From Photorhabdus asymbiotica (GTDB lineage Bacteria; Pseudomonadota; Gammaproteobacteria; Enterobacterales; Enterobacteriaceae): a DNA stretch of 64,000 bases. Numbering within the stretch: the stretch's first letter is position 1; every line of letters starts with the position of its first letter. The translations under genes were made by a program, and so were the position numbers. Under the pieces are notes generated by a model. That model worked only from the letters and a program-made list of their open reading frames with translations, had not been told where the DNA came from and did not search any database. Positions 22,330-47,672 of the stretch are shown piece by piece. The stretch spans positions 1-64,000 of the forward strand of contig NZ_RBLJ01000001.1 in NCBI RefSeq assembly GCF_003634575.1, read 5' to 3'.

Positions 22330-22628
22330 TGCCAATGCCAGCTGCTCGGGTCGGAGATATGCATATTTGTCCAATGGTATCGCCTGCAGTACCTCCGGTG
22401 CCACATGTGGGTGGGCCTATTATGCCGCCAGGAGTGCCAACGGTTCTTATTGGTGGTTTGCCCGCGGCGACGATGGGGTCGTTGTTGGTGTGTGTTGGGC
22501 CACCGGATACGGTGGTAATGGGAAGTCCAACAGTGTTAATTGGCGGGCGGCCTGCGGCCAGACTTGGCGATTTGTGCGCCCATGGCGGCACGATCACGAC
22601 AGGCTATCCGTTGGTGATTATTGCCTGA
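22326..22628 (+). CDS. PAAR-repeat spike tip protein
   Basis: This 100-residue protein has PAAR features: MPAARVGDMHICPM near the start, VPTVLIGGLPAATMG, and SPTVLIGGRPAARLGDLCAHGG near the end, with His and Cys residues able to bind Zn. It sharpens the VgrG spike. It is an orphan PAAR with no fused toxin domain. It overlaps the upstream gene by 4 bases. Confidence 0.92.
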   Translation: MMPMPAARVGDMHICPMVSPAVPPVPHVGGPIMPPGVPTVLIGGLPAATMGSLLVCVGPPDTVVMGSPTVLIGGRPAARLGDLCAHGGTITTGYPLVIIA

Positions 22629-22641
22629 AAGGGAAATAAGA

Positions 22642-24388: not shown

Positions 24389-24393
24389 CCGCC

Positions 24394-25791
24394 ATGTTTG
24401 AACATAAACCGATGTATTGGTATTCAGGATTGTATTTACAACCACAACATTTTCAGGCGCATGAATTGCAACATGAATATTGGCAAGGACGTTATCAATT
24501 ATTGACTCAACCTTATGCTTTCGGTGTTGTGAGGTTGGTGTTCAATCTGGCCGCGCTGAGTGATGAAGTACTCAGTATTCATAAAGCCGTGTTCGTTTTT
24601 CCGGATGGCTGTTATGTGGATTGTGATGTGAATGGTGTGCTCAGTGCTCGCTCACTGCGCAACTGTTGGCCGGAACGTGAAAAACCACAGCGCATTTATG
24701 TTGGCCTGCGGACGTTTAACCATAACCAGAGTAATGTCACCGGTGTCGTGGATGCTGACAGTGTAGGTAATATCACTAGCCGTTGGGTGACATGGCCGCA
24801 AGAGCAACGGATGCGGGATGCGTTTGGTGAGGGACCAGAGGCAGAAGTGCAGCAACTCACTTATAACTTACGTTTTTTTCTACATGATGAAATTGCACAG
24901 GCAACGGGTTATACATTGTTACCTGTGGGTCAACTGCATTGTACTAGTGATGGCATTGAACTGGATAACCGCTACTTGCCGCCCTGTTTGACGTTATACG
25001 CTGTGTCACAACTGGGACAGCGTATTGATCAACTTTGTCAGGAATTGACAGGACGTGTCCATCAACTGGAAGAGCTAAAGCGCCCGCAAACATTGGAAGC
25101 GGAAGTTTATACTCAGGAAAAAAGTACATTATTGCTGACATTGCGTACTCTGGTGCGTTATGTCGTGCAGTTGCATCACTGCCAGGAGACGCGTGATGTT
25201 CATCCTTTGCAGATTTTTGGGCTATTGCGTCAACTGATCAGTGAGCTTTCCTGTTTTACCGACCGTTGCTCTTTTTTAGGGGAATGGAACGGACGAGAGG
25301 AGACGTTGGAGAAATATCAGCATCAGGATTTAGCTTTGACGTTCAATAGCTGTGAACGAACCATTATCGACCTGCTCAATGCACTGGTATTGGAACCGAA
25401 CACGGTGATCCCGCTGCAACAGGAATGCAATGGTTATTATCATGCAGCGTTCAACGTAACAGGCGCAAGTGAACAGCAACGGATCTATTTGGTGCTGCGC
25501 TCTGACAACTTAACTGACAGCGAACGTGAAATTCCTGATGATCGTTTAATTAAGCTGGCGGCAGCGGAACAGATTGACGGCATTATTAATCGCGCTTTAC
25601 CTGGAGTGCGCTTGTATTACCAGGAGATTGCCCCCCATGGTTTACCTAACCGAATGAATACTCATTATTTCCGGGTAGAAAATCGGGGAACGCTGTGGCG
25701 GCAGGTAGAAGATAGCGAACGCGTAGCGGTGCACTGGGCTGATGCGCCAGACGATTTACAGATAGAAATCGTTATAGTGAGAGTGTCGTGA
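24394..25791 (+). CDS. tssK: T6SS baseplate-membrane connector TssK
   Basis: This 465-residue protein starts FEHKPMYWYSGLYLQPQHFQ, matching the TssK signature in which W-x-x-G-x-x-L-x-PQHFQ is diagnostic. It also has a middle helical coil (QRIDQLCQELTGRVHQLEEL) and the C-terminal domain. TssK links the baseplate to the TssLM inner-membrane complex. It is separated from tssJ by 5 bases. Confidence 0.95.
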   Translation: MFEHKPMYWYSGLYLQPQHFQAHELQHEYWQGRYQLLTQPYAFGVVRLVFNLAALSDEVLSIHKAVFVFPDGCYVDCDVNGVLSARSLRNCWPEREKPQRIYVGLRTFNHNQSNVTGVVDADSVGNITSRWVTWPQEQRMRDAFGEGPEAEVQQLTYNLRFFLHDEIAQATGYTLLPVGQLHCTSDGIELDNRYLPPCLTLYAVSQLGQRIDQLCQELTGRVHQLEELKRPQTLEAEVYTQEKSTLLLTLRTLVRYVVQLHHCQETRDVHPLQIFGLLRQLISELSCFTDRCSFLGEWNGREETLEKYQHQDLALTFNSCERTIIDLLNALVLEPNTVIPLQQECNGYYHAAFNVTGASEQQRIYLVLRSDNLTDSEREIPDDRLIKLAAAEQIDGIINRALPGVRLYYQEIAPHGLPNRMNTHYFRVENRGTLWRQVEDSERVAVHWADAPDDLQIEIVIVRVS

Positions 25792-26411
25792 TGCGCTTAT
25801 TGGATTGTTACATTCCGGTATTTACCTGTGTGTTGCGTATGATCCAGCAACAGGTGAATCAAGCCGAAGAGCTACGGCAAACATTGTTAGCCGCGTTGAC
25901 GCAGGCGCAGAATGAAGCGCAACGGTATGGTTATGGATTGCAAGATATTGAAGAGGCGAATTTCGCAGTGGTGGTTTGGGCCGACGAAGCTATTTTATGC
26001 GCAGGTCAGAAAGAATTGCATGTTTGGCGGCAGTCATCATTGCAGGCGCAGCTTTATAATGCTGAACTTGGCGGAAATACCTTTTTTGATCGTCTGGCAG
26101 CGTTATCCCCGGATAATTATCAAGTTCGATTGGTTTATGTTTTTTGCTTGCTTTCTGGATTTTATGGACGTTATGGCAGACGTGATAATTTGGAATTGCA
26201 CAATATTATCCAACAAGAATTAGATAATTTTCCTGATACTTTGCGTCGTTATATTGCCACAAAAAATCACAGGATCATGAACACGGGCGATAATATTCTG
26301 GAAAATAAACGACCTAATAATAAATGGCGTAGGAAGTTAATATTATTAATATTGTCGCTTATCTCAATTTATATTTTTATCACAGTTTACTTATTGAATA
26401 TTAGCCGATAA
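25791..26411 (+). CDS. tssL: T6SS inner-membrane protein TssL (DotU/IcmH)
   Basis: The ATG at 25791 shares one base with the tssK stop (TGATG); a GTG one codon upstream is possible. The product is about 206 residues. The DotU domain has IEEANFAVVVWADEAIL and FFDRLAALS, with FCLLSGFYGRYG after it. A single C-terminal membrane anchor (LILLILSLISIYIFITVYLL) follows. There is no peptidoglycan-binding extension. Confidence 0.94.
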   Translation: MRLLDCYIPVFTCVLRMIQQQVNQAEELRQTLLAALTQAQNEAQRYGYGLQDIEEANFAVVVWADEAILCAGQKELHVWRQSSLQAQLYNAELGGNTFFDRLAALSPDNYQVRLVYVFCLLSGFYGRYGRRDNLELHNIIQQELDNFPDTLRRYIATKNHRIMNTGDNILENKRPNNKWRRKLILLILSLISIYIFITVYLLNISR

Positions 26412-26426
26412 AGTCGGAAATTAAAC

Positions 26427-29400
26427 ATGAAAAAGTTATTTTATGCCATTGGCTGGCTCAGCGTGATGGTTATCCTTTTGTTACTCAGTTTAATCATTGC
26501 TGTGGCGTTTTCATGGCCAACAATCGGTGGTCTGATATTATTTCTTTGTTTATTGCTGTTGTTATTATTGCTGCGTGGTGCGATGGCATTAATACCGCAG
26601 ATAACGAATAAGGTGAGTCGGATAAATAAGTTCTGGCGACAGGGAAATAATCGTCTGGAATATTTACTGTATCAGCATTGGTGGTGGGGAGGACGTTTAC
26701 AAAGTTGGCGTCGATTTCGTTCATGGTTACAACGTAACGGTTCTGTTCCTCCATGGTTTCTAGTGGTGGGAGAACTCAATAGCGGCAAACAGTCATTGTT
26801 AGCACGCAGTAATGTGGTGCCTATGACAGGGAGAAATTTGACATCGTTTTCGGAGAATACCTTTACTTGCCGTTGGTGGTTTTTCCGTCGGGCGATGTAC
26901 ATGGTAGTTTCTGGTCGTTATACCGAGGGCCAATCCTTGTACCGGCAAGCGTGGTTGCGTCTGATACGTTGGATCGCACAGGTGCGTAACCCTGCGGGTG
27001 TACTCGTTTGTCTGTCGGCAGAGCAGTTGCTAAACAGTGACAATAGAGCGCTCTATACCATGGCGCGTAATGTACGTGCGCAGTTGGAACCGTTGCAGAT
27101 ACGTTTGGAACGTCGTTTACCAATCTGGTTAATTCTGACACACAGTGAAGCATTGCCGGGGTTCAGCCGTTGGTGTTCGCAATTGTCGGTAGAGCAGCGT
27201 GCTGACTTACTGGGTAGTTTTATTGATCAACATACAGATGGCAATGTCACTGATGTGCTGGATAAGAGTATACTCACGATTGTTGATACTCTGAAAATGA
27301 TGCGCCTTAAATTGCTCAATCAGCAACGGCAGCAACCACAAGCAGAAGTGTTGGCGTTACCGGAAACTGTTGCCCAATTGAAACCCGCATTGGACTATTA
27401 CCTAAACGCATTATTCGAGCGTGATCATTATCTGGAACATGGTCTGTTACGCGGCGTATTTTTTACTGCGGAACATCAAACAGAATTGCAGCAAACCGAA
27501 GGCGTTTTTAGTCACCGTTTGTTGGGAGAATATCTGCCTAACCAGATTCGACGTAGTGATTCTGTTTTGCTAACCGGTTGGCGAACATTGACCAAACGTG
27601 CGTTGATTAGTGTGTTTAGCTTGATGATTGTATACGGTGCAGGTAGCGCATTGGTTAATACCTGGCATGGCGTCACGCAACTTGAGAATATCCATGAAAC
27701 CAGTCCACTTGAGCGGAGCTACTTGCGCTATCAATATGTTGAGCAATGGTTACAGCAAACAGTGTCATACCTGCTTTTTTATCCTGTCACCTATACGCTG
27801 GAACAGCGTATGGAGCAGGAATACCAGCAGCAGGTTCCAGTTGATGTGTTCAATCCTGAGTCGATAGCCACACGTTTGCTAATGCGTTTCAGGGAGGCTG
27901 AAACACCGCAAAAACGACTGTTGGTTTTACATTGGTCGCGCTTTATCAATATCGAGCAGGCAATGGCGCGTGGTGCTTCACTGGAAACTTTACAACACAT
28001 GCCTGCTTATTCTGCCTCACTATTAAGCGGTAAAGATGATCCTCTACGGCCAGATCAGCGGGTAGCATTGCGTTTAGCACAATATCGTCAAGGCAACGCA
28101 CAGCAAGCCTTCGATCAATGGCGGGATACATTGCAGACATTATTGGAAGATTCCAGTGATTGGCAGTGGCTTTTGGCGGATGAACAACCGACTGGAACGC
28201 ATTCGCTAACGTTGGCGGATTTCTGGCCGCTGGCGGAAGGTGATGTTGCTAAGGTTAACGCGCGTATTCGTGGCATTTATACTCGCGCAGGTGAGCGGGA
28301 TATTCAGGCTACCTTGAATGAGTTGGCACAGGCTCTTGACCGACCGGCACGCTTTTCTCCTTTGCAGCGCTCATTCTGTCAACAATATCAGAACCAGCGT
28401 CAGTCAGAGTGGTTGGCATTTGCTCAAGCAATGCCACAAGCGGAAGGATTAGTACGTGGTAAGAAAAACTGGCAAACGTTGGTATTAGCAACCGGCCAGT
28501 TTGGCAGTCCTTATATTGTTTTTCTGTCACGACTGGAGAATGACCTGTCTACGGTGAAGCAGGAAGATCAGCAGCTTTGGTTACAGACGCAACAGCGTTT
28601 ATGGCAACTGCATGGCTATATACAAAAAGGCAGCATGATGCAGCGTGTCTCGCTGGGAAATATTTCCTTGCGCCAACGCATAATGTCATGGCTTGGCATT
28701 TCACCGCAGATCTCTGTGCGGTTGGATGACAATGCATTAACGCGCTATCGCGATTACCGGCAGGCCATACAGTTGAATAGTCAACGTGAATTGCTCAGTG
28801 ACATGGAAACGGAATCGTTAGTCAAAAATGCGTTGAGTGATGGGAAAGGGGAACTAAATGATAACGGTTTACGTACATTGTTTAATCGCTTCGCATTGTG
28901 GCGTCATGAAACGGAAAGCAAGAATGCCGGAGTAAATGAAACCTTGTGGCGGCTCTATCAGGGTGATGCTCATTTGGTACTGCGTTATGCCTTCTTAAGT
29001 GCTGCCAGCCGCTTGCAAACACAGTGGGAAAGTAAAGTGATCTGGCCGATGGAAAAATTAGGCGGACAGACGCTGTTGGATGGTCGGGAATTGAATGCAC
29101 GGTTGTATGAATACAGCAATGCATTTGTACGGGATACGGCAGATTATGCGCTGGATATTCGTCCTGAAGGCATTAATCGCCAAGAAATTGAAGGTGTGTC
29201 CTTTCCGTTTAACGACAATTTTATGTTCTATATCAATAATTTGATTCAACCGAATAACATGCTGTCATCTACATCTGATATTCGTCGCCGTTTGCAAGAG
29301 AAGCTCGCTTTGTTGGAAAGCGAACGTGAATTGGCTGCGGTACAGCAGGAACCGGAACAAGAGCAATCAGCAGAAGTGGTGATTACCAGTCAGCCTGCGA

Positions 29401-29927
29401 CGGCTAACCGGGGAGCGAGGGTGTTACCGGTTGGTAGTTCAGTGACGCTAAGTTGTAATGATGGTGAGCAACAACTCAGAAGTATGAATTTCAATGACAG
29501 TATGACTGCGCACTGGAATCCGGCCTCATGCGGCAAGGTACGGATTGATGTGTATTTCCCCAGTTTTACGCTAAGCAAAAGCTATGTTGGTGCTGATAGC
29601 TTGCTGCAATTTATACGCGCTTTTTCTCATGGCGAACTGACATTGACAGCGCAAACATTCCCGCAGCGGCGCAATGAATTAGGCGCTTTGGGTATCAATG
29701 ACATCACAGTGCGATATCAGATCGGTGGAGAGAAAGCGGTTTCTTCATTGTATCAACAGTGGCAACAACGTCAGCAGCAACAAACCGCACTATTGGAACA
29801 ACGCAACCGACTGGATAGTCAGTTGTTGGATTTAAGTGAGCCGACAGTGGCGAAAGGCTCTCTTTCTACATTGCCGTTACAAATCACGACATATTGGAAC
29901 GAATTGAGGAAACCTAAAAGTGAGTAA
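26427..29927 (+). CDS. tssM: T6SS inner-membrane protein TssM (IcmF)
   Basis: This 1166-residue IcmF-family protein has two N-terminal membrane helices (about residues 5-28 and 32-55). A cytoplasmic domain with PWFLVVGELNSGKQSLL follows at about 110-126. A third membrane helix is near 393-412 (ALISVFSLMIVYGAGSALV). The large periplasmic part has the IcmF-related C-terminal region and a final DUF1215-like domain. The P-loop reads GELNSGKQS, where the family often has GKT or GKS, so nucleotide binding may be weakened. It works with TssL and TssJ as the trans-envelope complex. Confidence 0.95.
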   Translation: MKKLFYAIGWLSVMVILLLLSLIIAVAFSWPTIGGLILFLCLLLLLLLLRGAMALIPQITNKVSRINKFWRQGNNRLEYLLYQHWWWGGRLQSWRRFRSWLQRNGSVPPWFLVVGELNSGKQSLLARSNVVPMTGRNLTSFSENTFTCRWWFFRRAMYMVVSGRYTEGQSLYRQAWLRLIRWIAQVRNPAGVLVCLSAEQLLNSDNRALYTMARNVRAQLEPLQIRLERRLPIWLILTHSEALPGFSRWCSQLSVEQRADLLGSFIDQHTDGNVTDVLDKSILTIVDTLKMMRLKLLNQQRQQPQAEVLALPETVAQLKPALDYYLNALFERDHYLEHGLLRGVFFTAEHQTELQQTEGVFSHRLLGEYLPNQIRRSDSVLLTGWRTLTKRALISVFSLMIVYGAGSALVNTWHGVTQLENIHETSPLERSYLRYQYVEQWLQQTVSYLLFYPVTYTLEQRMEQEYQQQVPVDVFNPESIATRLLMRFREAETPQKRLLVLHWSRFINIEQAMARGASLETLQHMPAYSASLLSGKDDPLRPDQRVALRLAQYRQGNAQQAFDQWRDTLQTLLEDSSDWQWLLADEQPTGTHSLTLADFWPLAEGDVAKVNARIRGIYTRAGERDIQATLNELAQALDRPARFSPLQRSFCQQYQNQRQSEWLAFAQAMPQAEGLVRGKKNWQTLVLATGQFGSPYIVFLSRLENDLSTVKQEDQQLWLQTQQRLWQLHGYIQKGSMMQRVSLGNISLRQRIMSWLGISPQISVRLDDNALTRYRDYRQAIQLNSQRELLSDMETESLVKNALSDGKGELNDNGLRTLFNRFALWRHETESKNAGVNETLWRLYQGDAHLVLRYAFLSAASRLQTQWESKVIWPMEKLGGQTLLDGRELNARLYEYSNAFVRDTADYALDIRPEGINRQEIEGVSFPFNDNFMFYINNLIQPNNMLSSTSDIRRRLQEKLALLESERELAAVQQEPEQEQSAEVVITSQPATANRGARVLPVGSSVTLSCNDGEQQLRSMNFNDSMTAHWNPASCGKVRIDVYFPSFTLSKSYVGADSLLQFIRAFSHGELTLTAQTFPQRRNELGALGINDITVRYQIGGEKAVSSLYQQWQQRQQQQTALLEQRNRLDSQLLDLSEPTVAKGSLSTLPLQITTYWNELRKPKSE

Positions 29928-32490
29928 TTATCTGAAACAGATCGTGGGTAAATTAACGGTGGAGGCGCGTCAGTGTCTTGATGAGGCTGCTAATTTGGCG
30001 GTACGACGCACCCATCATGAAGTGGAAATTGAGCATTTGCTGCTAGCTTTGTTTGAAAAACAGATGCCGATGATGGAGCAGGTATGTCATCACGGTGGTA
30101 TTGATGCTATCGCGCTACTGAATGCTTGCCAGCGGTCGCTGACGCTATTGCGTAGTGGTAATCATCGTCCGCCAGTATTCTCTACCAATCTGACAGAGTG
30201 GATGGAACAGTCATGGATGTACGCCAGCACTCGTTCTTATTTGGGATCGTTGCAGATTACCGCTCAGGCGTTGATTGTGACATTACTCGTCAACCCATCA
30301 CTGCAACATTCGCTCACATCGGAACTGCAACAGGCGTTACAGTGTAACTCTGATGCGATAGAACAGTGGTTGTGTACACAGGTGCATCCAGAACCACAGC
30401 AAATGACGACTACCAGGGATAATACGCAATCCGCATTGTCTCAATATGCTCATCATCTAACGCAGGCGGCACGTGATAATAAACTGGACCCGGTACTGGG
30501 ACGTGAGCGGGAGATTCGTCAATTAATTGACGTGTTGCTGCGCCGTCGTCAAAACAACCCACTGTTAACCGGTGACGCGGGGGTCGGTAAGACGGCTTTG
30601 ATAGAGGGACTTGCTCAACGTATTGTCGATGGCCGTGTACCGGAGGTGTTAACGCAAGCCGAATTATTCACACTTGACATGGGGCTATTGCAGGCAGGTG
30701 CTAGCGTGAAAGGTGAATTTGAAAGTCGCCTGCAAAACTTATTGGATGAGGTGAAAGAATATCCTGCACCCGTGATTTTGTTTATTGATGAAGCGCACAC
30801 TTTGATTGGTGCTGGTGGTCAAGCCGGGCAAAACGATGCGGCTAATTTGTTGAAGCCAGCGTTGGCTCGGGGGGAATTGCGGGCGATTGCTGCAACTACC
30901 TGGGCCGAATATAAGAAATACTTTGAAAAAGACGCCGCGTTAGCCCGTCGTTTTCAGGTGATTAAAGTTGAAGAACCTTCTCTGGAACTGGCTACAGCTA
31001 TGTTACGTGCCATAACACCGGCTATGGAAAAACATCATGGCGTCAAAATACTCGCTGAAGCGGTAACAGAAGCCGTGACATTAGCCAGTCGTTATATCAG
31101 TGGGCGTCAGTTGCCGGATAAATCAGTCAGCCTGTTGGATAGCGCCTGTGCCCGCGTCTCAGTTTCACAGACTGACGAACCTGCACCTATTGAAGATTTA
31201 CGTGCCATGCTGGCAAATATTGCTACTGAACAGGCAGCATTATTACGTGAAGGTGGTCATGAAACTCAGTTAAAGAAATTGGCACAACGTCAGGCCGAAT
31301 TACAGGCTTCACTGGAAGAAATTTTGCCGGAATATCACATTCAGCGTCAGTTAGTGAATGACATCCTCACTTGTGAAGAACATGACGAACAGCTACCCAA
31401 ACTGCGAGCAGAACTGCATCAACGCCATCGCCAACATGCCTATGTATTTGACTGTGTTGATGCAGCTTGCGTAGCGGATATTGTTGCCGGCTGGACGGGG
31501 ATACCGCTTGGCCGGATGGTAGAAAATGAACGTGATGTACTGCGTCAACTCGAAACGCGCCTCGGTCAGCGGGTAATGGGGCAAGATCATGCGCTCAGTC
31601 AGATAGCGCGTCAAATTCGGATTGCCAAAGCGCAACTGGCTGATCCGGTCAAGCCTACTGGCGTATTTATGCTTGCAGGTCCTTCTGGTGTTGGAAAAAC
31701 GGAAACCGCTCTGGCATTAGCTCATGAATTGTATGGTGGTGAACGTCATATGATCACGATCAATATGTCGGAATATCAAGAGGCTCATTCTGTTTCTGGC
31801 TTGAAAGGTTCTCCTCCAGGGTATGTCGGTTATGGACAAGGTGGCGTGTTGACCGAAGCAGTTCGGCGTCAACCTTACAGTGTGGTATTACTCGATGAAG
31901 TGGAGAAGGCGCATCCTGATGTGTTGGAACTGTTCTTTCAGGTGTTTGATAAGGGCATGATGGAAGATGCAGAAGGGCAGCAGATTAATTTCCGCAATAC
32001 GTTGATTATTCTTACCACTAATGCGGCATCGGATTTGGTGATGCGGGCAGCGATGCATGGGGTAAAAGAGCAGGGTGAAAATCGCCCGGCAACACTTGAA
32101 GATATTCAGGAGATTATCCAACCGGAACTGCAACGGATTTTTACTCCCGCATTTTTAGGCCGTTTGCAGGTTATTCCTTATTTGCCAGTACATGGCGAAG
32201 TTCTGCATGCCATTGTGCGTCATAAACTGAATAAAGTGGTTGGGCGTTACCATCAAGCAACTCAGTGTGAACTGCACTATAGCGACGGGCTGGTAAATTT
32301 CATCGCTGAAGAGTGCCGGATCGCAGAAAGTGGGGCACGTGAAATTGATAACTTGTTAATGCAGTTTGTTCTACCGTTGTTATCGGATCAATTGTTATTG
32401 GGGGATACACCAGTGAATGAGGATGTTCGGTTGGATGTTATGGACAATAAAGTACAGTTATTATCAGATAAAACCGAATTATCACCATAG
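29920..32490 (+). CDS. clpV: T6SS ATPase ClpV (TssH)
   Basis: This 856-residue Hsp100/Clp protein has an N-terminal Clp-repeat domain with VRRTHHEVEIEHLLLAL. The first AAA domain contains Walker A GDAGVGKTAL near residue 222 and Walker B ILFIDEAHTLIGAGG. The second AAA domain contains GPSGVGKTETAL near 588 and VVLLDEVEKAHPDV. ClpV unfolds and recycles contracted TssBC sheath. The gene overlaps tssM by 8 bases and is the last core T6SS gene. Confidence 0.95.
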   Translation: MSNYLKQIVGKLTVEARQCLDEAANLAVRRTHHEVEIEHLLLALFEKQMPMMEQVCHHGGIDAIALLNACQRSLTLLRSGNHRPPVFSTNLTEWMEQSWMYASTRSYLGSLQITAQALIVTLLVNPSLQHSLTSELQQALQCNSDAIEQWLCTQVHPEPQQMTTTRDNTQSALSQYAHHLTQAARDNKLDPVLGREREIRQLIDVLLRRRQNNPLLTGDAGVGKTALIEGLAQRIVDGRVPEVLTQAELFTLDMGLLQAGASVKGEFESRLQNLLDEVKEYPAPVILFIDEAHTLIGAGGQAGQNDAANLLKPALARGELRAIAATTWAEYKKYFEKDAALARRFQVIKVEEPSLELATAMLRAITPAMEKHHGVKILAEAVTEAVTLASRYISGRQLPDKSVSLLDSACARVSVSQTDEPAPIEDLRAMLANIATEQAALLREGGHETQLKKLAQRQAELQASLEEILPEYHIQRQLVNDILTCEEHDEQLPKLRAELHQRHRQHAYVFDCVDAACVADIVAGWTGIPLGRMVENERDVLRQLETRLGQRVMGQDHALSQIARQIRIAKAQLADPVKPTGVFMLAGPSGVGKTETALALAHELYGGERHMITINMSEYQEAHSVSGLKGSPPGYVGYGQGGVLTEAVRRQPYSVVLLDEVEKAHPDVLELFFQVFDKGMMEDAEGQQINFRNTLIILTTNAASDLVMRAAMHGVKEQGENRPATLEDIQEIIQPELQRIFTPAFLGRLQVIPYLPVHGEVLHAIVRHKLNKVVGRYHQATQCELHYSDGLVNFIAEECRIAESGAREIDNLLMQFVLPLLSDQLLLGDTPVNEDVRLDVMDNKVQLLSDKTELSP

Positions 32491-38272: not shown

Positions 38273-38647
38273 TTATTTTCTTTCCTTAAGAGGGGAATAT
38301 CGAGACTCTATTATGACATCGACAAGAAATTTATCTGAGTTGTCACCGTAATACCTTGGCGCGTCATTGAATAAAAGTATTAATTCTCCATCTACGGGAA
38401 CAGTTTTATGAAGTACTCCATTGCCTATGTCGTAGGTTTTATCACCGATTTTGGCACTGAGCGCGTCGGATGAATTTAGTTGATAAGTAGGTATAGAGCC
38501 CTGAGGTGCGGCCCATTGATTGTCTCCACGACCGAACTTTACCCATCCTTTGGCAATAACAGAGATTATATCTCCTTGTTTGAGAATAAGTCCTGTGGGT
38601 TTACCGTTTTTAGCATTAGCTGGAACACTTCCTGACCAATCATACAT
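38273..38647 (-). CDS. PA-IL/LecA-like lectin (PllA family)
   Basis: This 124-residue cytosolic protein is homologous to the galactose-binding lectin LecA of Pseudomonas aeruginosa and its Photorhabdus relative PllA. WSGSVPANAKNG at the start aligns with LecA WKGEVLANNEAG, ILKQGDIISVIAKGW with the GDVITIVAAGW region, and LLFNDAPRYYGDNS with the Ca-binding loop YNDVPGTYGNNS. By that alignment the ligand residues Y36, T104 and N107 read F, Y and D here, while D100 and N108 are kept. The H50 contact region is shortened. Ca or sugar specificity may therefore differ. A strong ribosome binding site GGAGG precedes the ATG. An ERIC lies directly upstream. Confidence 0.85.
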   Translation of the reverse strand: MYDWSGSVPANAKNGKPTGLILKQGDIISVIAKGWVKFGRGDNQWAAPQGSIPTYQLNSSDALSAKIGDKTYDIGNGVLHKTVPVDGELILLFNDAPRYYGDNSDKFLVDVIIESRYSPLKERK

Positions 38648-38671: not shown

Positions 38672-38798
38672 TATACCTGTTATCTTTCAAGTTGCCTCTT
38701 TGTTGGCTGCACTCACTCACCCCAGTCACATAGTTATCTATGCTCCCGGGGATTCGCTCCCTTGCCGTCGCGATGCATCTTGAAATCTATTGGGTATA
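38672..38798. repeat. ERIC element upstream of the lectin gene
   Basis: This is a complete copy of the CCTGTTATCTTTCAAGTTGCC variant, bounded by TATA. It begins 24 bases upstream of the lectin start, so it may lie in the lectin promoter or leader. Confidence 0.9.
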
Positions 38799-39043: not shown

Positions 39044-39203
39044 ATGGCTCTTACTAAACTGTGTATTAGAAATATATATGCGTTGTTACTCTTCATAAAG
39101 TACACCCAGATCCAGTAACGTATCTATTCAATCCAGTATTAGTTCAATATCTTCAGATTTTAATTGGCTATTATTGGCAATACGATCGATAAGGGTTTCT
39201 ACA
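39044..39203 (-). pseudogene. Fragment of lasso B1 (3' end) and B2 (5' end) genes
   Basis: Read on the minus strand it gives VETLIDRIANNSQLKSEDIE, as in the intact B1 protein. It then has an in-frame TGA where the intact gene has a Gly codon, and continues to the same LLDLGVLYEE end and the first B2 codons. This is clearly a non-functional relic. Confidence 0.85.
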
Positions 39204-39490
39204 ATATAGACGAAAAAAACATTATTACACTTGATATTTTTTATGGTTTTTACAAAGTATTTATTATTATAATTCATATTAACTGATAATAATTACTCTC
39301 CTCTGTAAATCATAATATGTCACTATATTAGATCTGAAATAAAGTATTAGGTAATTTATTTAAACTGAGCATGTCACCGAGGTAATTATCGTGGGCATTA
39401 TTCCTGAGATATTCCTGTATTAGATATCGAAAATATGGTTCGGGTCACAAATCCAGCACTTAAGTGCTGGATTTGACAATTTAGAGGTCA
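39044..39490 (-). repeat. Direct repeat: decayed duplicate of the lasso operon front, precursor deleted
   Basis: 39044-39203 matches 43717-43876, 39204-39316 matches 44509-44633, and 39317 onward matches 44757 onward. Against the other copy it lacks about 631 bp (the precursor gene and the first half of the B1 gene) and a 127-bp ERIC. The hairpin AAATCCAGCACTT/AAGTGCTGGATTT at 39449-39474 is perfect here and has one mismatch in the other copy. Confidence 0.85.
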
Positions 39491-39595
39491 GAGGCCGCCC
39501 GTTGAAGCAAGAACTAGACACTGAGCAATCAGCAGTCACCCACTAACGGGAATCCCCCTCCTGAGTCACGAAGTCGAAGGTGGGGGAAGATGTCA
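39491..39595 (+). mobile_element. Probable right-end remnant of an IS200/IS605-family element (TnpB tail plus end hairpin)
   Basis: A short plus-strand frame reads GRPLKQELDTEQSAVTH then a stop at 39544-39546, resembling the C-terminal tail (...KQE...) of TnpB proteins. It is followed by the phrase GGGAATCCCCCTCC and a stem with CCCCC at 39554-39558 and GGGGG at 39582-39586, then AAGATGTCAA. That layout is typical of IS605-type right ends. No transposase body is present. The last bases abut the 3' end of the lasso transporter gene. Confidence 0.55.
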
Positions 39596-39599: not shown

Positions 39600-41366
39600 T
39601 TATATAATCTCAGTGCGTTTCTGATAGAAACTGGCTTGACTGTGAAACATCCGGGCGTATTTTCCGTTCTGTGCGATAAGTTCATCATGCGTTCCTGCTT
39701 CAATAAGGCGGCCTTGGTGCAATACGATAATGCGGTCGACGAAGCGCGTTAAAGAAAGGCGATGACTGACAATAACGGTCGTCCGTTGCTTGGCCAGTTT
39801 GAGTATAAGCCGCATTATCTCGCCTTCAGACTCCGGATCAAGTGCTGAGGTGGGTTCATCGAAAACAAGCAGGTCGGCCTCATCAATGTGAGCCATCGCC
39901 CGCGCGATAGCCAGCCGTTGCCATTGCCCTCCAGATATATCGGCTCCACCTTCTATTTCCGTCGTTAACGGCGTGTCCAGCCGATTTTCAAGAAAATTAA
40001 GACCAACCTCCCGCAGATATTCGTTGATAGATTGCGTATCGCGGGTAAAAAGATTACCACTTACGTCAAGTGGAAAACGTGCAAAGTCTTGAAATACACC
40101 AATGACGCGTGGAGGAATGTGCGATACCGACCACGTTAGTTCGCCAGTGGTCGGTGCATATAGCCCGCATAGCATTTTGAGCAGGCTTGTTTTTCCAGCG
40201 CCATTTTCACCAACGATCGCGATCGTCTGCCCATGTTGAATGTTCAAATCAATTTGCTCCAGCGCAGCACATTCAGCACCTGGATAGCGTAGTTCAACAT
40301 TCCTCAGCGTTAGACAGGGCATGATCACCGATGATTTGGGCATAGTCTGAGGCTTACGCGTGTCCTCGCAATTTGTCTCCTGTTTAGCCGTATGGATGGA
40401 AACCAGGTTGCGATATGGACGTACGGCATATGACACTCGGAGCAGGTCACCGAAATTAAAAATGACCGCTGATAGGCCGTCTTTCAGTTGAACGAGTGCA
40501 CCAAGCAAAAAGGCGAGCTGAGCAATGCTGAACTTACCTAGCTGAAATCCATCGACAACAACATAAAGCGGTACGCCCAGACAGATGCTCGCGAACAAGG
40601 AGGTGAACAACAATTTGATGGCGTTACGTGTACGTACCAGCTTGATATGCTTAAGATAGTTATCATAAAGGGTTTGCCACCGACTCAGCAAATGCGCCTG
40701 CATACGATAAAGACGCAGATCTTTAGCAAATTCGGGTTGAGTTAATATTCGCTCCAGAATACGCAGTTCGTTAAATGTCGCTGCATGATGTTCCTGCACA
40801 TCCCAACTTTCGCTTTCCGTTCGAGCACGGTACATCACGGTAGGCACCATGCCCACCAGCATTAGGAAAGGTATCCACCATGCGACCTGTCCTGTCAGGA
40901 AAAGAATCGGAATAATCATCAAAATTCCCGTACATACGGCGTATAAATGTGACACCATTTCACCTAATTCATCGCCGACTTTAGTCGAGAGAATAGCCAT
41001 TTCACGCAGTTTGGTATCTTCATGAATGGCGAGGCCCGGGAACGTTGCAATGATCTCATTCACCTTACGTTTCAGTAGCATGACTGCTGAGTCTCGCAGT
41101 GTATCTACGATAAAGTTTGAGATAGCATTCAGTCCGTCCTGAAAACCACTGAGTATAAAATAGGCAGATACTAATGCGATGACAGCCGCTGCGGCTATAT
41201 TGGTGGTTAGACTTTCTATGAGATGTGCGTTGATATAAAGTAACGCGCTAGGAATGAGGCCAATGACAAGATTAGAGGCAATAGCAATAGTTAATGCGCG
41301 CGGTGCTGCTTGCCATAACAGCGACAATGCGTTGCGGAGGTTTTGTATGTTATCCCAATATTTCAT
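39600..41366 (-). CDS. Lasso peptide ABC transporter (exporter/immunity, LarD/McjD-type)
   Basis: This 588-residue half-transporter has an N-terminal membrane domain of about six segments (roughly residues 20-310). The nucleotide-binding domain has Walker A GENGAGKTSLL near 382, signature ISGGQWQRLAIARAM near 472, Walker B DLLVFDEPTSALD and a switch His in VIVSHRLSL. In lasso operons this protein exports the mature peptide and often protects the producer. It is the last gene of the operon, 19 bases after the cyclase. Confidence 0.9.
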   Translation of the reverse strand: MKYWDNIQNLRNALSLLWQAAPRALTIAIASNLVIGLIPSALLYINAHLIESLTTNIAAAAVIALVSAYFILSGFQDGLNAISNFIVDTLRDSAVMLLKRKVNEIIATFPGLAIHEDTKLREMAILSTKVGDELGEMVSHLYAVCTGILMIIPILFLTGQVAWWIPFLMLVGMVPTVMYRARTESESWDVQEHHAATFNELRILERILTQPEFAKDLRLYRMQAHLLSRWQTLYDNYLKHIKLVRTRNAIKLLFTSLFASICLGVPLYVVVDGFQLGKFSIAQLAFLLGALVQLKDGLSAVIFNFGDLLRVSYAVRPYRNLVSIHTAKQETNCEDTRKPQTMPKSSVIMPCLTLRNVELRYPGAECAALEQIDLNIQHGQTIAIVGENGAGKTSLLKMLCGLYAPTTGELTWSVSHIPPRVIGVFQDFARFPLDVSGNLFTRDTQSINEYLREVGLNFLENRLDTPLTTEIEGGADISGGQWQRLAIARAMAHIDEADLLVFDEPTSALDPESEGEIMRLILKLAKQRTTVIVSHRLSLTRFVDRIIVLHQGRLIEAGTHDELIAQNGKYARMFHSQASFYQKRTEII

Positions 41367-41385
41367 GACGATAGTCTCGGCTCAT

Positions 41386-43308
41386 TTAGTTCACGAAAGT
41401 ACGCAAGGGTGAAAATTTCAGGTAGTGAATTACAGAAGTTCGCTCCTGCGTAAATTTCATCAGCCAGGCTTCAAGATCTATCACTCCACGTAGGTAATGG
41501 TATTCAACACCAAGCTGAGTGTTGGGATCTTCCGTCGCAATGATATAGGCCATCAAATAGCGACGGAATTGGGCCTGATCAATGAACTTCCAACTATCCA
41601 AGATCATTGGCCTATCCGTCAAACGCAACATCTCTTTCGCGCTGTTATAAAACATACGACGAGCCATTAATGCATAACTTGTTTTGCTCTGTTTGTCGGT
41701 AGCAAAATTGGGTAGTATGTCGGAATAAGCCTTTCTCGCCAGCATCTTTGAAGTTGCATATGGGTTGGCAAGATTGAGACGTTTGTAATCATGGTTTAGA
41801 TGCGGTGGACAGGACAGCATAAATGCGGTCATCCTCGGATCTAGAAGAGGATGAGAATGTGTGCAGTAAATGTTCAGCGAATCGAAATAAGTGGCTCGAG
41901 GAAAAAGTAAAGTTTTAATGTAATCATGGCCAAGATATTTAGCCTGAGAGCACGCTATCTTTATTTTTTGTAATTTAGCTTGTTGGCTCATAGAATTATG
42001 CAGCACAGCCCCAAAGTAGTCGGGCAGCCTCTGGTCATTTGACACCTCCTTAATCAATGCCCGTCTTCCCAAATAAGGTGAAAGAGAAGTGAGTATATGG
42101 CGAAAGTAGTCCAGAGAAAAAGGACGCACCCGCAGATTCTCGGTGATATATTTATGTAACTCCCCGATTCCGTCGTGTATACGAATCGAATCTAGAATCC
42201 ATTGATGCATCGATTCTCCAAGAATGATATCTCCGCCTTCTCCCGTCATAATAAGCGATACATTGTTGTGCTGAAAAACGCTAGCTAAAGCCTCCTTGGC
42301 AAGTGGGTTAGCGGATGGCTCTGGCCCGTCGACGTAGGCGATTGGATCATCTGGTGCCGGCAAACGAAGAAAATCATCGGCATAGACAATATTGTGAGGA
42401 AGGTTGCAGTGATGAACTAGTGCCTCAACAATTTTATCATCTTGACTCATTGCAAGGTCTGCATCTCTGAAGCTCATATTGGCGCAGAACATGGGAGGGC
42501 TTTCATTCAATGCGAGGCTTGCGCCGAGGACAGTACTTGAGTCTATTCCTCCGCTTAGTAGAATCCCATCTGCGCCGGCTTTGAGGCGGTCTGCCACACA
42601 CGTATCAAAGCATTCTCGGAATGCGTGCTGAAAGTTCTCATGATAAGAGAGCGTCTTGCTGTACTGAGAAGCTGCGCTTGTGTTCATTGGTGCCAATTTA
42701 AATATCCCATCTGTTCTATTGATCTTCAATACGCTGTTTATCGGCATCTTTCGTATTTCAGCAAAGAAAGTTGCGCCATCGGCCAGTTCGTTTTCTCCTA
42801 CCATGACGGACTGCGTTAGGAATTCAAAGCATGACTCATGTCTTATGTTGAGCGGCACATGATGAAACAACAGTAACATTCTTAAGTCATTACTAATGAC
42901 CCACTGTCTATTCTTTCCCTGCCAGTAATAAACCGGATGTGTCGCATAGTGATCGGTCACAGCATGCACATGGCCGGGCTGAATCGATATGTAGCTAAAC
43001 TCACCTATTACTCTTCCCTGAGATGGATCAAGTATCGGCGCGTTTTGGCGGAATGATGAAATAAGAAGATCGTTGTCCAAATCACGTATCCATCCGCTGT
43101 AAGATGAATGAGCAGTAGATATCTCAATGCCAGTCAACTTTCGTTCAGTATCGCAAAGGCGAACATCGGCTTCGATCATTGTTGCCCATTGGTGATCCAT
43201 CTTCTTCATGCTATCGATTTGGATATCTGTCATGGCATTGAAGAGAGCGTTAACATATGCATCTATATCAATCGTCGTAGCGTTTATTACCACCGACCAA
43301 AGTTTCAT
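41386..43308 (-). CDS. Lasso cyclase (asparagine-synthetase-like, protein C)
   Basis: About 640 residues. The N-terminal part is glutaminase-like but without an N-terminal catalytic Cys. The synthetase domain has the ATP-pyrophosphatase loop LLSGGIDSSTVLGA near residue 250 and a VDGPEPSANPLAKEA segment. Known cyclases adenylate the Asp/Glu side chain and join it to the N-terminal amine of the core. ATG 43308 overlaps the B2 stop (ATGA), which favours it over the upstream ATG at 43323. Confidence 0.9.
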   Translation of the reverse strand: MKLWSVVINATTIDIDAYVNALFNAMTDIQIDSMKKMDHQWATMIEADVRLCDTERKLTGIEISTAHSSYSGWIRDLDNDLLISSFRQNAPILDPSQGRVIGEFSYISIQPGHVHAVTDHYATHPVYYWQGKNRQWVISNDLRMLLLFHHVPLNIRHESCFEFLTQSVMVGENELADGATFFAEIRKMPINSVLKINRTDGIFKLAPMNTSAASQYSKTLSYHENFQHAFRECFDTCVADRLKAGADGILLSGGIDSSTVLGASLALNESPPMFCANMSFRDADLAMSQDDKIVEALVHHCNLPHNIVYADDFLRLPAPDDPIAYVDGPEPSANPLAKEALASVFQHNNVSLIMTGEGGDIILGESMHQWILDSIRIHDGIGELHKYITENLRVRPFSLDYFRHILTSLSPYLGRRALIKEVSNDQRLPDYFGAVLHNSMSQQAKLQKIKIACSQAKYLGHDYIKTLLFPRATYFDSLNIYCTHSHPLLDPRMTAFMLSCPPHLNHDYKRLNLANPYATSKMLARKAYSDILPNFATDKQSKTSYALMARRMFYNSAKEMLRLTDRPMILDSWKFIDQAQFRRYLMAYIIATEDPNTQLGVEYHYLRGVIDLEAWLMKFTQERTSVIHYLKFSPLRTFVN

Positions 43309-43769
43309 ATTGAAGTTGCCCATTCAGAGATGGCTGTATCTGGACTCATGCGCTGTAACGGACTATATCCGCTTAAGTCTACATGCCCCGGGTTAACAAT
43401 TTTTGTTTTGAATTTGTCACTGCATAATTCAATCCATGCATGACCGACGATCTTCTCATCTTGTTTTTTGATGCCAATCACCATATCGCTGGGGATGCCG
43501 TGTAAAGACGCCAACAATTGAACGACAATACTTGCTGAATAGCATGATGCACTAGTAATTTCTGATGAATCGGCCTGGTAAATAAAATCACAAATTTCCT
43601 GAAAATAGGATTGATCGATATGCTTTGCTGCATCAGAGAAATTCCCTCTAACAGTACATGGATATATCGATTTAAAGATACTGAGATAGGCATCTTTGAT
43701 TGGTTTTTCCAGCAATATGGCTCTTACTAAACTGTGTATTAGAAATATATATGCGTTGTTACTCTTCAT
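43305..43769 (-). CDS. Lasso leader peptidase (B2, transglutaminase-like)
   Basis: About 154 residues. The transglutaminase-like Cys-His-Asp triad is visible as SASCYSASIVVQLLA, VGHAWIEL and PGHVDLSG. These proteases cut off the leader peptide so that the cyclase can act. The start ATG 43769 overlaps the end of B1, giving tight coupling; a GTG three codons upstream is possible. Confidence 0.88.
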   Translation of the reverse strand: MKSNNAYIFLIHSLVRAILLEKPIKDAYLSIFKSIYPCTVRGNFSDAAKHIDQSYFQEICDFIYQADSSEITSASCYSASIVVQLLASLHGIPSDMVIGIKKQDEKIVGHAWIELCSDKFKTKIVNPGHVDLSGYSPLQRMSPDTAISEWATSI

Positions 43770-44091
43770 AAAGTACACCCAGATCCAGTAACGTAGCTAT
43801 TCCATCCAATATTAGTTCAATATCTTCAGATTTTAATTGGCTATTATTGGCAATATGATCGATAAGGGTTTCTACATACAGGCCATTCGGTGCATCTTGG
43901 AAAACACCCATAATATCGGCAGCCACCCCAGACACACCAAAATACTCTCCTTTGGTTTCGCTATATATTATTGCCTCACCGTCCAACGAAATGTATTCAA
44001 GAGGTTTTTTCGAATAAATGAGTTTTGGATATCTTTGCATTACGTATTTTACATACCTATTAAGAGACATTAAGTTGAGAAGAAAAAGCAC
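43759..44091 (-). CDS. Lasso leader-binding protein (B1, PqqD-like RRE)
   Basis: Up to 110 residues; the start may be GTG 44091 or ATG 44070. The PqqD-like fold is recognisable from ISLDGEAIIYSETKGEYFGVSG followed by a helical ending LDGIATLLDLGVLYEE. This RiPP recognition element binds the precursor leader and delivers it to B2. It lies between the precursor gene and B2. Confidence 0.85.
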   Translation of the reverse strand: MLFLLNLMSLNRYVKYVMQRYPKLIYSKKPLEYISLDGEAIIYSETKGEYFGVSGVAADIMGVFQDAPNGLYVETLIDHIANNSQLKSEDIELILDGIATLLDLGVLYEE

Positions 44092-44125
44092 GCACCTAAA
44101 AAACTTAGATACGTGCCAAATACCA

Positions 44126-44242
44126 TTATCTTCCGCCGCCTTTCACACCGCGTCCAAAGACACCATCACCGGGGCGGGACTTTTTAGATAGAATGACTGC
44201 CAGAAATGATCCATAAGAAACTATTTTTGTCGGTTTAATCAT
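44126..44242 (-). CDS. Lasso peptide precursor (38 residues), predicted core SKKSRPGD...
   Basis: The ATG at 44242 is preceded by AAGAGG with 7-base spacing; the stop is at 44126. The leader MIKPTKIVSYGSFLAVIL has the Pro and the YGSF pattern recognised by B1 proteins. In such leaders the core starts six residues after the Phe of YGSF. That places it at Ser19, giving SKKSRPGD followed by GVFGRGVKGGGR. Asp8 is then exactly placed for an eight-residue macrolactam with Ser1. Position -2 is Ile, not the usual Thr. The core is strongly basic. The gene is the first of the operon, just upstream of B1. Confidence 0.75.
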   Translation of the reverse strand: MIKPTKIVSYGSFLAVILSKKSRPGDGVFGRGVKGGGR

Positions 44243-44911
44243 TTTTTAACCTCTTTACGTTAAAATTAAAAAAATATTTTTTCGCTTTAGCATAAAAATA
44301 GTTTACTGAATATTTAATTAAGGCTCGTTTCTTGTACGCGGGTATAATAAACTAAGAGAATGCATAGAAGCTATTTGCTTTTACACTATAACGGGTAATT
44401 ATGTAAAGTAAAAAATTCACATAATAGAGATAAAAATACAAATTAAAATAGAAATCATGATATTACAGTTCTAATAACCAATACACACCAAGTAATTGGC
44501 CCACAAAAATATAGACGAAAAAAACATTATTACACTTGATATTTTTTTATGGTTTTTACAAAGTATTTATTATTATAACTCATATTAACTGATAATAATT
44601 ACTCTCCTCTGTAAATCATAATATGTCACTATACCCAATAGATTTCAAGATGCATCGCGACGGCCAGGGAGCGAATCCCCGGGAGCATAGAGAACTATGT
44701 GACTGGGGTGAGTGAGTGCAGCCAACAAAGAGGCAACTTGAAAGATAACAGGTATATATTAGATCTGAAATAAAGTATTAGGTAATTTATTTAAACTGAG
44801 CATGTCACCGAGGTAATTATCGTGGGCATTATTCCTGAGATATTCCTGTATTAGATATCGAAAATATGGTTCGGGTCACAAATCCAGCATTTAAGTGCTG
44901 GATTTGACAAT
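44243..44911. promoter_or_regulatory. AT-rich promoter region of the lasso operon
   Basis: No other gene is seen. It must contain the lasso promoter. It also holds an ERIC (44630-44756) and a near-perfect hairpin (44880-44905) that may end the upstream minus-strand gene. Confidence 0.55.
44630..44756. repeat. ERIC element inserted in a duplicated sequence (empty site known)
   Basis: This complete ERIC is flanked by TATA. The second copy of the surrounding repeat (39310-39320, CACTATATTAGATC) lacks it, giving a clean empty site and a TA/TATA target duplication. Confidence 0.92.
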
Positions 44912-45379
44912 TTAGAGGTCAGGGGACCACTCGGTGAAGCCCCACGTCCTAGTAAATTTTCTTAATATTTTCAACTGTATGCTGCCATGAACTCCAACAA
45001 ATGCAAGATGGTTATCCTTTCTCATGCACCACTCGAATCCTCCAGATTGACGTTTAATCACAACCATATCCTCCCATTTTTTCTGGTACTGAGCTTGACA
45101 GACAAGTATCTCGTGAGCGTTGTAGCCAAGGTAAGCCCCGTGCTTATTTACAGGGGATGCCCGGCAAATAAAACCAAGGTAGTCCCCATTTCCCCTTTCA
45201 ACACACTCAAATTGTTGTAGTGGTTCAGTGCTCTCCCATATTGCCAATGACACGCTTCCCGGCACTGCATGAAATTTACTAGCTACCGTTACAGCCGTCG
45301 CGTAATTACCCGCTGGATACGGATGAATAATATAAGTTTTTCCTGGGATCGGAGTATCGTTGCCTGTAAGTATTCCCAT
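44912..45379 (-). CDS. Unknown small protein, possibly a beta-trefoil lectin-like fold
   Basis: About 155 residues; ATG 45379 has GAGG seven bases upstream and is preferred over ATG 45385. The sequence is rich in aromatic residues and short beta-type segments with pseudo-repeats (TYIIHPY, LAIWEST, YLGFIC, YLGYNA, HLAFVG). It has no signal peptide. The spacing of these segments is reminiscent of a beta-trefoil (ricin-like or fascin-like) fold, but I do not recognise the family. Its last codons lie in the direct repeat of the lasso region. Confidence 0.55.
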   Translation of the reverse strand: MGILTGNDTPIPGKTYIIHPYPAGNYATAVTVASKFHAVPGSVSLAIWESTEPLQQFECVERGNGDYLGFICRASPVNKHGAYLGYNAHEILVCQAQYQKKWEDMVVIKRQSGGFEWCMRKDNHLAFVGVHGSIQLKILRKFTRTWGFTEWSPDL

Positions 45380-45397: not shown

Positions 45398-45514
45398 TAT
45401 ACCCTTCATCCTTCAAGTTGCTGCTTTGTTGGCTACCCCAGTCACAGAGTTATTTACGCTCCTAGGGATTCGTTCACTTGCCGTCGCGCTGCAACTCGAA
45501 ATCTATTGGGTATA
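45398..45514. repeat. ERIC element, internally shortened
   Basis: The CCTTCATCCTTCAAG variant with TATA ends and about 10 bp missing in the left arm (GGCTACCCCAGTCACAGAG). It sits directly upstream of the 44912-45379 gene. Confidence 0.88.
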
Positions 45515-46051: not shown

Positions 46052-46115
46052 TATAGCTCCTTAAGCTGAAGCAAAGATGGCGTCTGATTAACCAAACCGA
46101 GTCATGGAGTTTAAA

Positions 46116-47672
46116 ATGAACGTTTCACAGCAGATACCTGCGCCTAATAATTATAGTGAAGAGAGAAACCGGTATTCAGTATTACTTCCTTTGTGTGCTG
46201 CGGGAATCATCATCCCTATCGTATTCACAGGGCCTGCAATTGCTACGCCTATGATTGCTCTCGAACTTGGTGGTTCTTCGATTGAATTGGGCGGAATTGT
46301 TAACGCTTATAACGTTGCTTTTGGTAGTTGTGTGATGGCTGGTGGAACATTGGCTGATCGGTTTGGTCGTAAGCGTTGTTTTTTAAGTGGATTAATCTTG
46401 TTTTTTATCACTTCACTTCTTATTGGCTTCGCTCCCGATATTATTTCACTCAATATACTCCGGGGTATAGAAGGAATCGCCGGCGCTTTGACCCTGACGA
46501 GTTCATCAGCTCTGATAGCGCAAGAATTTGATGAACATTTACGATTGCGAGCGTTTAGCTTCCTTGGTACCTCCTTTGGTATTGGATTAGCATTCGGCCC
46601 TATGCTTGTGGGGACGATGATAGCTAACTTTGGTTGGCGATCGCTCTTTTTCTTTATCGCTTTGGTATCACTGCTTGTCCTTTTGTTCAGTGCCAAAAAG
46701 GTAAATGAATCAAAAGATCCTGAAGCGAAAAGTATAGATTGGCCGGGCATCATTCTTTTTACACTTGCCTTGAGTACATTAACGTTGGGAATTGTTTTTG
46801 CACCAGAAAGAGGATGGACTGATATTTATATTATTGGATTGTTCCTTACGAGTGCTTTGCTTTTAGTTGTTTTTGTTATAGCGGAAGTTAAGTCTCGATA
46901 TGCAATGCTTGATTTAAGTCTATTCCGCTATCCGCGATTTATTGGCGTGCAATTATTGCCTATTTCAACAGGATTCTGTTTTGTCGCGTTGTTAGTTTCT
47001 CTGCCAATCTGGTTCATCGGTATTCAAGGTTTTAATGAGGGGCGAGTAGGTCTTGCAATTCTCCCACTGACAGCGCCGATGCTGGTTGTTCCTTTCATTG
47101 CTGGGTATCTCTCAAAATATGTCTCCCCCGGGCTGATTTGTAGCATCGGGTTGTTGGTTGCCGCTGTTGGCGGATGTTGGTTAGCTTTCAGCCTCCAAGT
47201 TGACGGAAATATAAATTCTTTAGTTGGTCCTTTATTAATGATCGGTATTGGTAGTGGATTGCCGTGGGGACTCATGGATGGTTTATCTATGAGTGTAGTA
47301 CCTAAAGAACGCGCAGGCATGGCAGCAGGCATATTTACGACTATGCGTGTATCTGGGGAAGCTTTGGCTATCGCTATCATTGGTGCTTTGCTGGCAGCGA
47401 AGACATCGGCCATTCTGGTTTCCGCCAAAGCAGATCATGCTTTTTCAAATATAGTCTCCAGCGAATGGGGAGGAAAGATCGCGAGTGGCCAAATGTCATC
47501 CATACTTGAATCGGTCACTGATGCTGATAGGGCAAGTTTGGGCCACTGGCTTGCGACAATATATCAAAATTCCTTCGGTTCAATTTTGTTGATAATCGCA
47601 GCATTAACAGCGTTGAGCGCGTTAGCTTGTGCATTATTGCTACGACGTGAAAAGCAAAATTCAATTCGCTAA
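46116..47672 (+). CDS. MFS drug/metabolite exporter (DHA2, 14-TM type)
   Basis: ATG 46116 is chosen because GGAG lies 7 bases before it; an in-frame ATG at 46104 has no good site. The product is about 518 residues with about 14 hydrophobic segments. Motif A is GGTLADRFGRKRC near residue 76. A long C-terminal periplasmic-type loop precedes the last helix. EmrB/QacA-like proteins export drugs or secondary metabolites by proton antiport. It is the first gene of a plus-strand series with SDR and OYE genes, so it may export the product or substrate of that pathway. Confidence 0.88.
   Translation: MNVSQQIPAPNNYSEERNRYSVLLPLCAAGIIIPIVFTGPAIATPMIALELGGSSIELGGIVNAYNVAFGSCVMAGGTLADRFGRKRCFLSGLILFFITSLLIGFAPDIISLNILRGIEGIAGALTLTSSSALIAQEFDEHLRLRAFSFLGTSFGIGLAFGPMLVGTMIANFGWRSLFFFIALVSLLVLLFSAKKVNESKDPEAKSIDWPGIILFTLALSTLTLGIVFAPERGWTDIYIIGLFLTSALLLVVFVIAEVKSRYAMLDLSLFRYPRFIGVQLLPISTGFCFVALLVSLPIWFIGIQGFNEGRVGLAILPLTAPMLVVPFIAGYLSKYVSPGLICSIGLLVAAVGGCWLAFSLQVDGNINSLVGPLLMIGIGSGLPWGLMDGLSMSVVPKERAGMAAGIFTTMRVSGEALAIAIIGALLAAKTSAILVSAKADHAFSNIVSSEWGGKIASGQMSSILESVTDADRASLGHWLATIYQNSFGSILLIIAALTALSALACALLLRREKQNSIR

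Follow-up and report, generated by a model that had tools for sequence, protein, structure and literature searches.

The window analysed here, the first 64,000 nucleotides of contig NZ_RBLJ01000001.1 of Photorhabdus asymbiotica (source genome G000, 5.1 Mb), contains a complete lasso-peptide operon on the minus strand between 39600 and 44242, with the gene order A-B1-B2-C-D running from 44242 to 39600 (Table 1). The original prediction, made from the sequence alone, had placed a precursor, a B1 leader-recognition (RRE) protein, a B2 protease, a cyclase and a transporter at this locus, and all five are indeed present on that strand. The operon is real and intact and belongs to a known antibiotic family, that of lariocidin, of which it is a minimal version, with a product and a target that we predict from its sequence. 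As an antibiotic lead that targets the ribosome, lariocidin represents a new class. A natural analogue from an insect-associated enterobacterium, a relative of E. coli, that is encoded by five genes and differs in its tail offers a ready peptide variant for structure-activity work.

Table 1. Positions of the operon genes and associated features in the window
Feature	Position	Strand	Details
Precursor A	44126-44242	-	38 codons + stop, MIKPTKIVSYGSFLAVILSKKSRPGDGVFGRGVKGGGR; leader MIKPTKIVSYGSFLAVIL, predicted core SKKSRPGDGVFGRGVKGGGR
Stem-loop with T-rich tail between A and B1, terminator- or attenuator-like	44087-44117	-	RNA fold
B1, RRE/PqqD-like leader-recognition protein	43759-44091	-	likely start ATG at 44040
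B2, transglutaminase-like leader peptidase	43305-43778	-	Cys79 + His113; PF13471, 6.4e-12; NF033537, 35.2 bits (cut-off 33)
C, asparagine-synthetase-like lasso cyclase	41386-43323	-	SGGxDS motif intact; PF00733, 1.1e-14
D, single ATP-binding cassette (ABC) exporter, fused permease + ATPase	39600-41366	-	proposed export and immunity; PF00005, 9.8e-25
Apparent partial-duplication remnant (B1 end, B2 start, region upstream of A)	39044-39494		beyond 3' end of D; direct repeats

Precursor, machinery and conservation of the operon

Precursor A scores 74.4 bits against the curated NCBIfam model NF050021 ("lariocidin family lasso peptide", cut-off 40) and 43.4 bits against NF050022 (cut-off 27), and stays below the triculamin-like model NF050031 (21.9 bits against a cut-off of 65), in line with the presence of an 18-residue leader. 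The leader carries the YGSF pattern that had been read in it, with Ile at position -2, also as claimed, and Leu at -1. A recount of the 20-residue predicted core, which ends in Arg, agreed with the earlier description of six Lys/Arg, a single Asp and no Glu, and the family-typical residues K2, K3, S4, P6, G7, D8, G9, R13, G14 and K16 are all found in it; an 8-residue ring between Ser1 and Asp8 is predicted. The core had further been called unusual for being cationic. It is basic as stated, but this charge is normal within the lariocidin family, as the inferred lariocidin core (see below) contains seven Lys/Arg residues. To our knowledge, basic cores are unusual among lasso peptides in general.

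The same operon, in the same gene order and between the same sensor-kinase and major facilitator superfamily (MFS) genes, was found in a sister Photorhabdus species (G296). Since precursor A scores so clearly against NF050021 and its protein is identical in the sister species, where nine codons are changed and all of these changes are synonymous, it is not a chance open reading frame. The DNA pattern of the core occurs once in the window and 0.00 times in 100 shuffles, although this is a weak control, the pattern having been built from family cores and then corrected to fit the window core. Codon changes between the two species, given as synonymous/non-synonymous, were 9/0 in A, 10/8 in B1, 20/5 in B2, 71/42 in C and 72/34 in D, and none of the five frames is interrupted or differs in length between them, bar the uncertain starts of B1 and B2. 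Both species also retain the A-B1 stem-loop (-17.7 kcal/mol, z -6.5 in the window; -20.5, z -7.6 in the sister species); a further scan also lists it, with a scan total of 3 that shows no excess over the shuffle mean of 4.0.

These comparisons bear on the idea that the cluster is decaying or silent and that its product is no longer made. Remnants of a duplicated operon lying alongside and a decayed relative on a Cupriavidus plasmid (both described below) would fit such a scenario, and so would the promoter scan, which did no better than chance (12 sites versus 13.6 in shuffles); however, the intact frames of equal length in two species and the lack of any amino-acid change in A argue against it, and we consider it very unlikely.

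The machinery proteins have the features expected of their roles. The predicted structure of B1 resembles that of the lasso leader-binding protein TbiB1, which points to an RRE fold, and the Cys and His of B2 are invariant among 8 aligned sequences. Cyclase C is 29-32% identical to five aligned lariocidin-type cyclases, and leaderless-type cyclases are weakly matched (E 7e-5 to 0.007). Exporter D is 94% identical to its counterpart in the sister species and 70% identical to the D protein of the Cupriavidus plasmid. Sequence searches of the PDB were uninformative, retrieving generic ABC transporters for D, with McjD not among the best 60 of 596 matches, weak unrelated matches for C, and no chain for precursor A, in a search set that leaves out chains shorter than 20 residues and in which the 18-residue lariocidin could therefore not appear.

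Relationship to lariocidin and its relatives

Lariocidin, from the lrc cluster of Paenibacillus sp. M2, is described in the available part of PMC11451635 (cited here and below to that extent) as an 18-residue peptide of 1870.06 Da, with a Ser1-Asp8 ring and with Lys2, Pro6, Gly7, Phe11, Arg17 and Gly18. The Paenibacillus polymyxa and Bacillus cores that we retrieved are SKKSKPGDGKFGRGVKRG, with a calculated lactam mass of 1870.0649, and in the core of P. polymyxa ISL-58 the residues Ser1, Lys2, Pro6, Gly7, Asp8, Phe11, Arg17 and Gly18 stand at the published positions (PMC11451635). The mass and the residue positions strongly argue that this core is the lariocidin sequence, and the ISL-58 core was used for comparison.

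The window core is identical to the ISL-58 core at 15 of the 18 positions, the differences being Lys5 to Arg, Lys10 to Val and Arg17 to Gly, plus two extra residues. The resemblance to lariocidin, which the original prediction had offered with an alignment to known cationic cores as a check, is thus borne out both by the curated NF050021 model and by this alignment. Ser1, Lys2, Pro6, Gly7, Asp8, Phe11 and Gly18 are retained, and position 17 differs. The two systems share a Y-G-x-F leader, a core of the form SKKSxPGDGxFGRGVK, the predicted 8-residue Ser1-Asp8 ring, a B1-B2-C set and ABC export (PMC11451635). They differ in that the window core has 20 residues ending in GGGR, whereas lariocidin has 18 ending in RG, and in that the window operon has one D gene and neither a GNAT acetyltransferase nor a clostripain gene, whereas the lrc cluster encodes D1D2, the GNAT protein LrcE and the clostripain LrcF. 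In lariocidin the clostripain trims Gly18, so that Arg17 becomes the last residue (PMC11451635), whereas the last residue encoded in the window core is already Arg; one might speculate that this accounts for the absence of a clostripain.

Several observations weigh against the overall explanation favoured below. The window core has substitutions for lariocidin Lys5, Lys10 and Arg17, and position -2 is Ile where all six leader-bearing relatives (see below) have Thr. B1 gave no blastp match at E<=0.01 with lariocidin-type B1 proteins and only 16-20% identity when alignment was forced, and D shares about 23-27% identity with transporters from lariocidin-type clusters. Cyclase C reaches 69 bits in NF033535 against a cut-off of 525; the lariocidin-type cyclase of P. 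polymyxa also falls below it, with 131 bits, indicating that this cut-off is ill-suited to this clade. The chance-level promoter scan belongs on the same side of the balance. Given the low identity of C, D and B1 to the lariocidin-type proteins, the window machinery is, at the level of sequence comparison, a separate branch with a nearly identical core.

Membership in the lariocidin family is as such not new, since lrc-like clusters have already been reported in Gammaproteobacteria in the available part of PMC11451635 and an NCBI family model exists. A literature search with a coverage that did not extend to the Nature 2025, Merrild 2025 and Jangra 2026 papers found no paper combining lariocidin and Photorhabdus. 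Among the papers listed for lasso peptides in Photorhabdus or Xenorhabdus, judged by titles and abstract openings, no such peptide was the topic, and the sole mention of lasso peptides in the available part of PMC12691670 is a reference.

Scanning genome contigs once with a core pattern revealed at least 14 loci. This number is a lower bound, because position 15 was written RTH in that pattern, which excludes Val GTG and misses the type found in the window and the sister species; the corrected pattern was applied only in a second scan of viral contigs and in the window. In six of the 14 loci (P. polymyxa, three Bacillus species, Photorhabdus caribbeanensis and Xenorhabdus innexi) the precursor carries the same type of leader, and all four of the six precursors that were scored match NF050021 (62.9-83.6 bits). 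The other eight, judged from start codons, seem to begin at or near the core and to carry a follower. Among these is Streptomyces triculaminicus JCM 4242 (L017), with a core that agrees with the triculamin sequence cyc(SKKSKPGD)GIRGKGVRG given in the available part of the review PMC13192320; triculamin resembles the window core but has no long leader, a C-terminal follower and a larger GNAT of 296 residues nearby.

The relatives in the same or a close genus, P. caribbeanensis HG29 (L009/L020) and X. innexi DSM 16336 (L011/L047), have precursors that match NF050021 as that of the window does (62.9 and 67.6 bits) and share the B1-B2-C set with one D, whereas their cores start with Arg (RKKSSPGDG), their clusters include a GNAT and a clostripain gene, and their cyclases are 30-31% identical to C. 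Around the P. caribbeanensis cluster, reading of the translations revealed phage-like genes (L009, 210-1679 and 12188-14321), among them a primase-like, a small DNA-binding and a tail-fibre-like protein, which suggests a prophage or island site for that cluster. In Bacillus paralicheniformis KJ-16 (L046, 3295-5312) the cyclase is split into two overlapping frames and the clostripain match crosses a stop, so that this cluster may be broken. On the Cupriavidus necator C39 plasmid p1 (L036) a decayed relative encodes an intact D and, of the cyclase, only the terminal part at its end (63% identical to C), with no precursor match by tblastn against the plasmid collection.

Self-protection and proposed mode of action

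All six leader-bearing relatives have an adjacent GNAT and an adjacent clostripain gene. Neither was found next to the window operon, a gap on which the original prediction had not remarked: BLAST with four cluster GNAT queries against window open reading frames of at least 60 amino acids gave no adjacent GNAT, the 8 proteins around the operon showed no GNAT domain in Pfam at E<=0.001, and the clostripain domain PF03415 had no match anywhere in the source genome or that of the sister species. Among the 16 genomes searched, PF03415 occurs in exactly the six that carry leader-bearing clusters. A GNAT lies near the core in 11 of the 14 pattern loci (the six leader-bearing ones, both Catenulispora, Sinorhizobium, S. 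triculaminicus and Kribbella); ten of these were tested by Pfam, all ten scoring above the PF00583 cut-off, and the eleventh (L015) was identified by BLAST. BLAST found no GNAT near the core at L012 (2 kb searched), L013 and L022/L010.

According to a 2026 review, Lys acetylation has been shown to confer self-resistance to triculamin and lariocidin (PMC13352647, available part). With the P. caribbeanensis cluster GNAT as a single query, nothing was found at E<=0.01 in the source genome or the sister species, while the same query reaches the distant GNATs encoded in the clusters of P. polymyxa (2.2e-4) and B. paralicheniformis (1.1e-6) as well as a non-cluster match in X. innexi (0.008). A profile of seven cluster GNATs gave 4 weak matches in each of the two genomes, the best with 40.6 and 39.0 bits; the 191-214 bits of three cluster GNATs arise by construction, all three being rows of the profile. 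By these sequence searches, no LrcE orthologue was found in either genome. Immunity through an altered target was rejected for the published resistance sites, as each of the 8 copies found agrees with E. coli at all seven 16S positions (PMC11451635); of four 16S segments compared with E. coli, three are identical and one differs only at position 1212.

Lasso exporters can confer immunity, as exemplified by McjD for microcin J25. With the acetyltransferase route apparently absent, immunity probably rests on exporter D, by elimination and by analogy with other lasso exporters. Alternatively, the same peptide with the same target could be countered by a distant GNAT encoded elsewhere in the genome or by the adjacent MFS exporter (46104-47672). 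Such protection differs from protection by D in the last step only, so that the likelihoods we attach to the two overlap. The four weak profile matches in the source genome, and the position of the MFS gene beside the operon in both species, are in its favour; yet the failure of the single query, which does reach distant cluster GNATs, speaks against it, profile matches of ~39-41 bits also appear in P. caribbeanensis and X. innexi in addition to the GNATs of their clusters and so look like ordinary GNATs, and the MFS gene, on the opposite strand and followed by oxidoreductase genes, may serve another pathway. On balance we find this alternative rather doubtful.

Proteins of the B1, B2 and C types are known to act in leader cleavage and ring closure. 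In the window operon, B1 would bind the leader in its YGSF region, B2 would cleave after Leu18, and C would activate Asp8 and link it to the Ser1 amino group, yielding a peptide with a ring of 8 residues, a threaded tail of 12 and a predicted monoisotopic mass of 1983.087 Da. The product would be exported by D, would enter other bacteria most likely by virtue of its charge, and would bind close to the decoding site of the 30S subunit and block translocation as lariocidin does, with the producer probably protected by D. The ribosome is the predicted target because of the core similarity and the retained contact residues: lariocidin binds the 30S subunit, blocks translocation and causes miscoding, and its Pro6, Gly7 and Phe11 approach the tRNA or stack on U531 (PMC11451635).

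A family peptide that is no longer aimed at the ribosome, such as a signalling molecule or a compound of narrow spectrum, would explain the lack of a resistance gene, and is compatible with the absence of a GNAT near the operon, the wild-type 16S sites, the three replaced residues and the two added ones. Nevertheless, the three contact residues (PMC11451635) and the strong basic charge are kept, and we judge this improbable. As a whole, the explanation that this is an intact minimal operon for a ribosome-targeting lariocidin-family lasso peptide, with protection by D, appears to us quite probable. More tentatively, and with somewhat less than even confidence, it is possible that the source organism produces its lariocidin-family peptide with no need of acetylation, has wild-type 16S rRNA, is protected by dedicated export alone, and encodes a C-terminal Arg needing no clostripain trimming. 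If true, the lariocidin class would have two strategies of self-protection, and stand-alone A-B1-B2-C-D operons would form a lineage found in Photorhabdus and Cupriavidus. A native case lacking the self-resistance gene that has been reported makes a direct test of export-based immunity possible.

Distribution and genomic surroundings

A lariocidin-type core is present in 3 of 12 Photorhabdus species genomes, the same three having a related cyclase, and the sensor kinase is present in all 12. D was not found by blastn within 1.5 kb beside the sensor-kinase end in the 10 species other than the source and its sister, and in three genomes (G138, G303 and G297) D, C, the MFS gene and the next genes were all not found in the ~8 kb following the sensor kinase. 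Since the sensor kinase is universal in this set but the operon side was not found in the other species, the operon, together with the genes to its right, resembles an island that was acquired, loss in the other species being the alternative. Transfer by phage or plasmid was considered and rejected: the core pattern did not occur in viral contigs, and the plasmid collection contained no match to the precursor, C as a query retrieving the decayed Cupriavidus relative only.

Cyclase C at E<=1e-30 was found in 1 of 369 genomes of the class, the source itself. At E<=0.001, NF050021 matched 2 of 369 genomes of the class (the source and one sub-cut-off match with an internal stop) and 1 of 295 genomes of the family, again the source (the sister species and G297 lie outside that sample); NF050022 matched 2 of 398 genomes of the phylum, the source and G319. 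Beyond the sister species, the class, family and phylum samples held no intact relative of the window sub-type.

The stretch beyond the 3' end of D (Table 1) and pieces of 43717-43876 and 44508-44925 form direct repeats of 92-99% identity that flank the operon. The left copy joins the start of B2 and the end of B1 to the region upstream of A, without A itself, and looks like a remnant of a partial operon duplication; it was not found between the kinase and D in the sister species. A 127-base interspersed repeat, which we take to be of the enterobacterial repetitive intergenic consensus (ERIC)-like kind from its appearance, occurs as a 98% complementary pair (38672-38798 and 44630-44756), one copy lying inside the right-hand flanking repeat, with a partial third copy at 45435-45514. 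Adjoining the remnant is a gene for a PA-IL (LecA-like) lectin (38273-38647; PF07828, 1.4e-40), which was not found by blastn in the corresponding stretch of the sister species. Further away, reading of the translations identified type VI-secretion-like genes at 13804-32490 and, at 61170-64003, phage-tail-like sheath and tube genes resembling Photorhabdus virulence cassettes.

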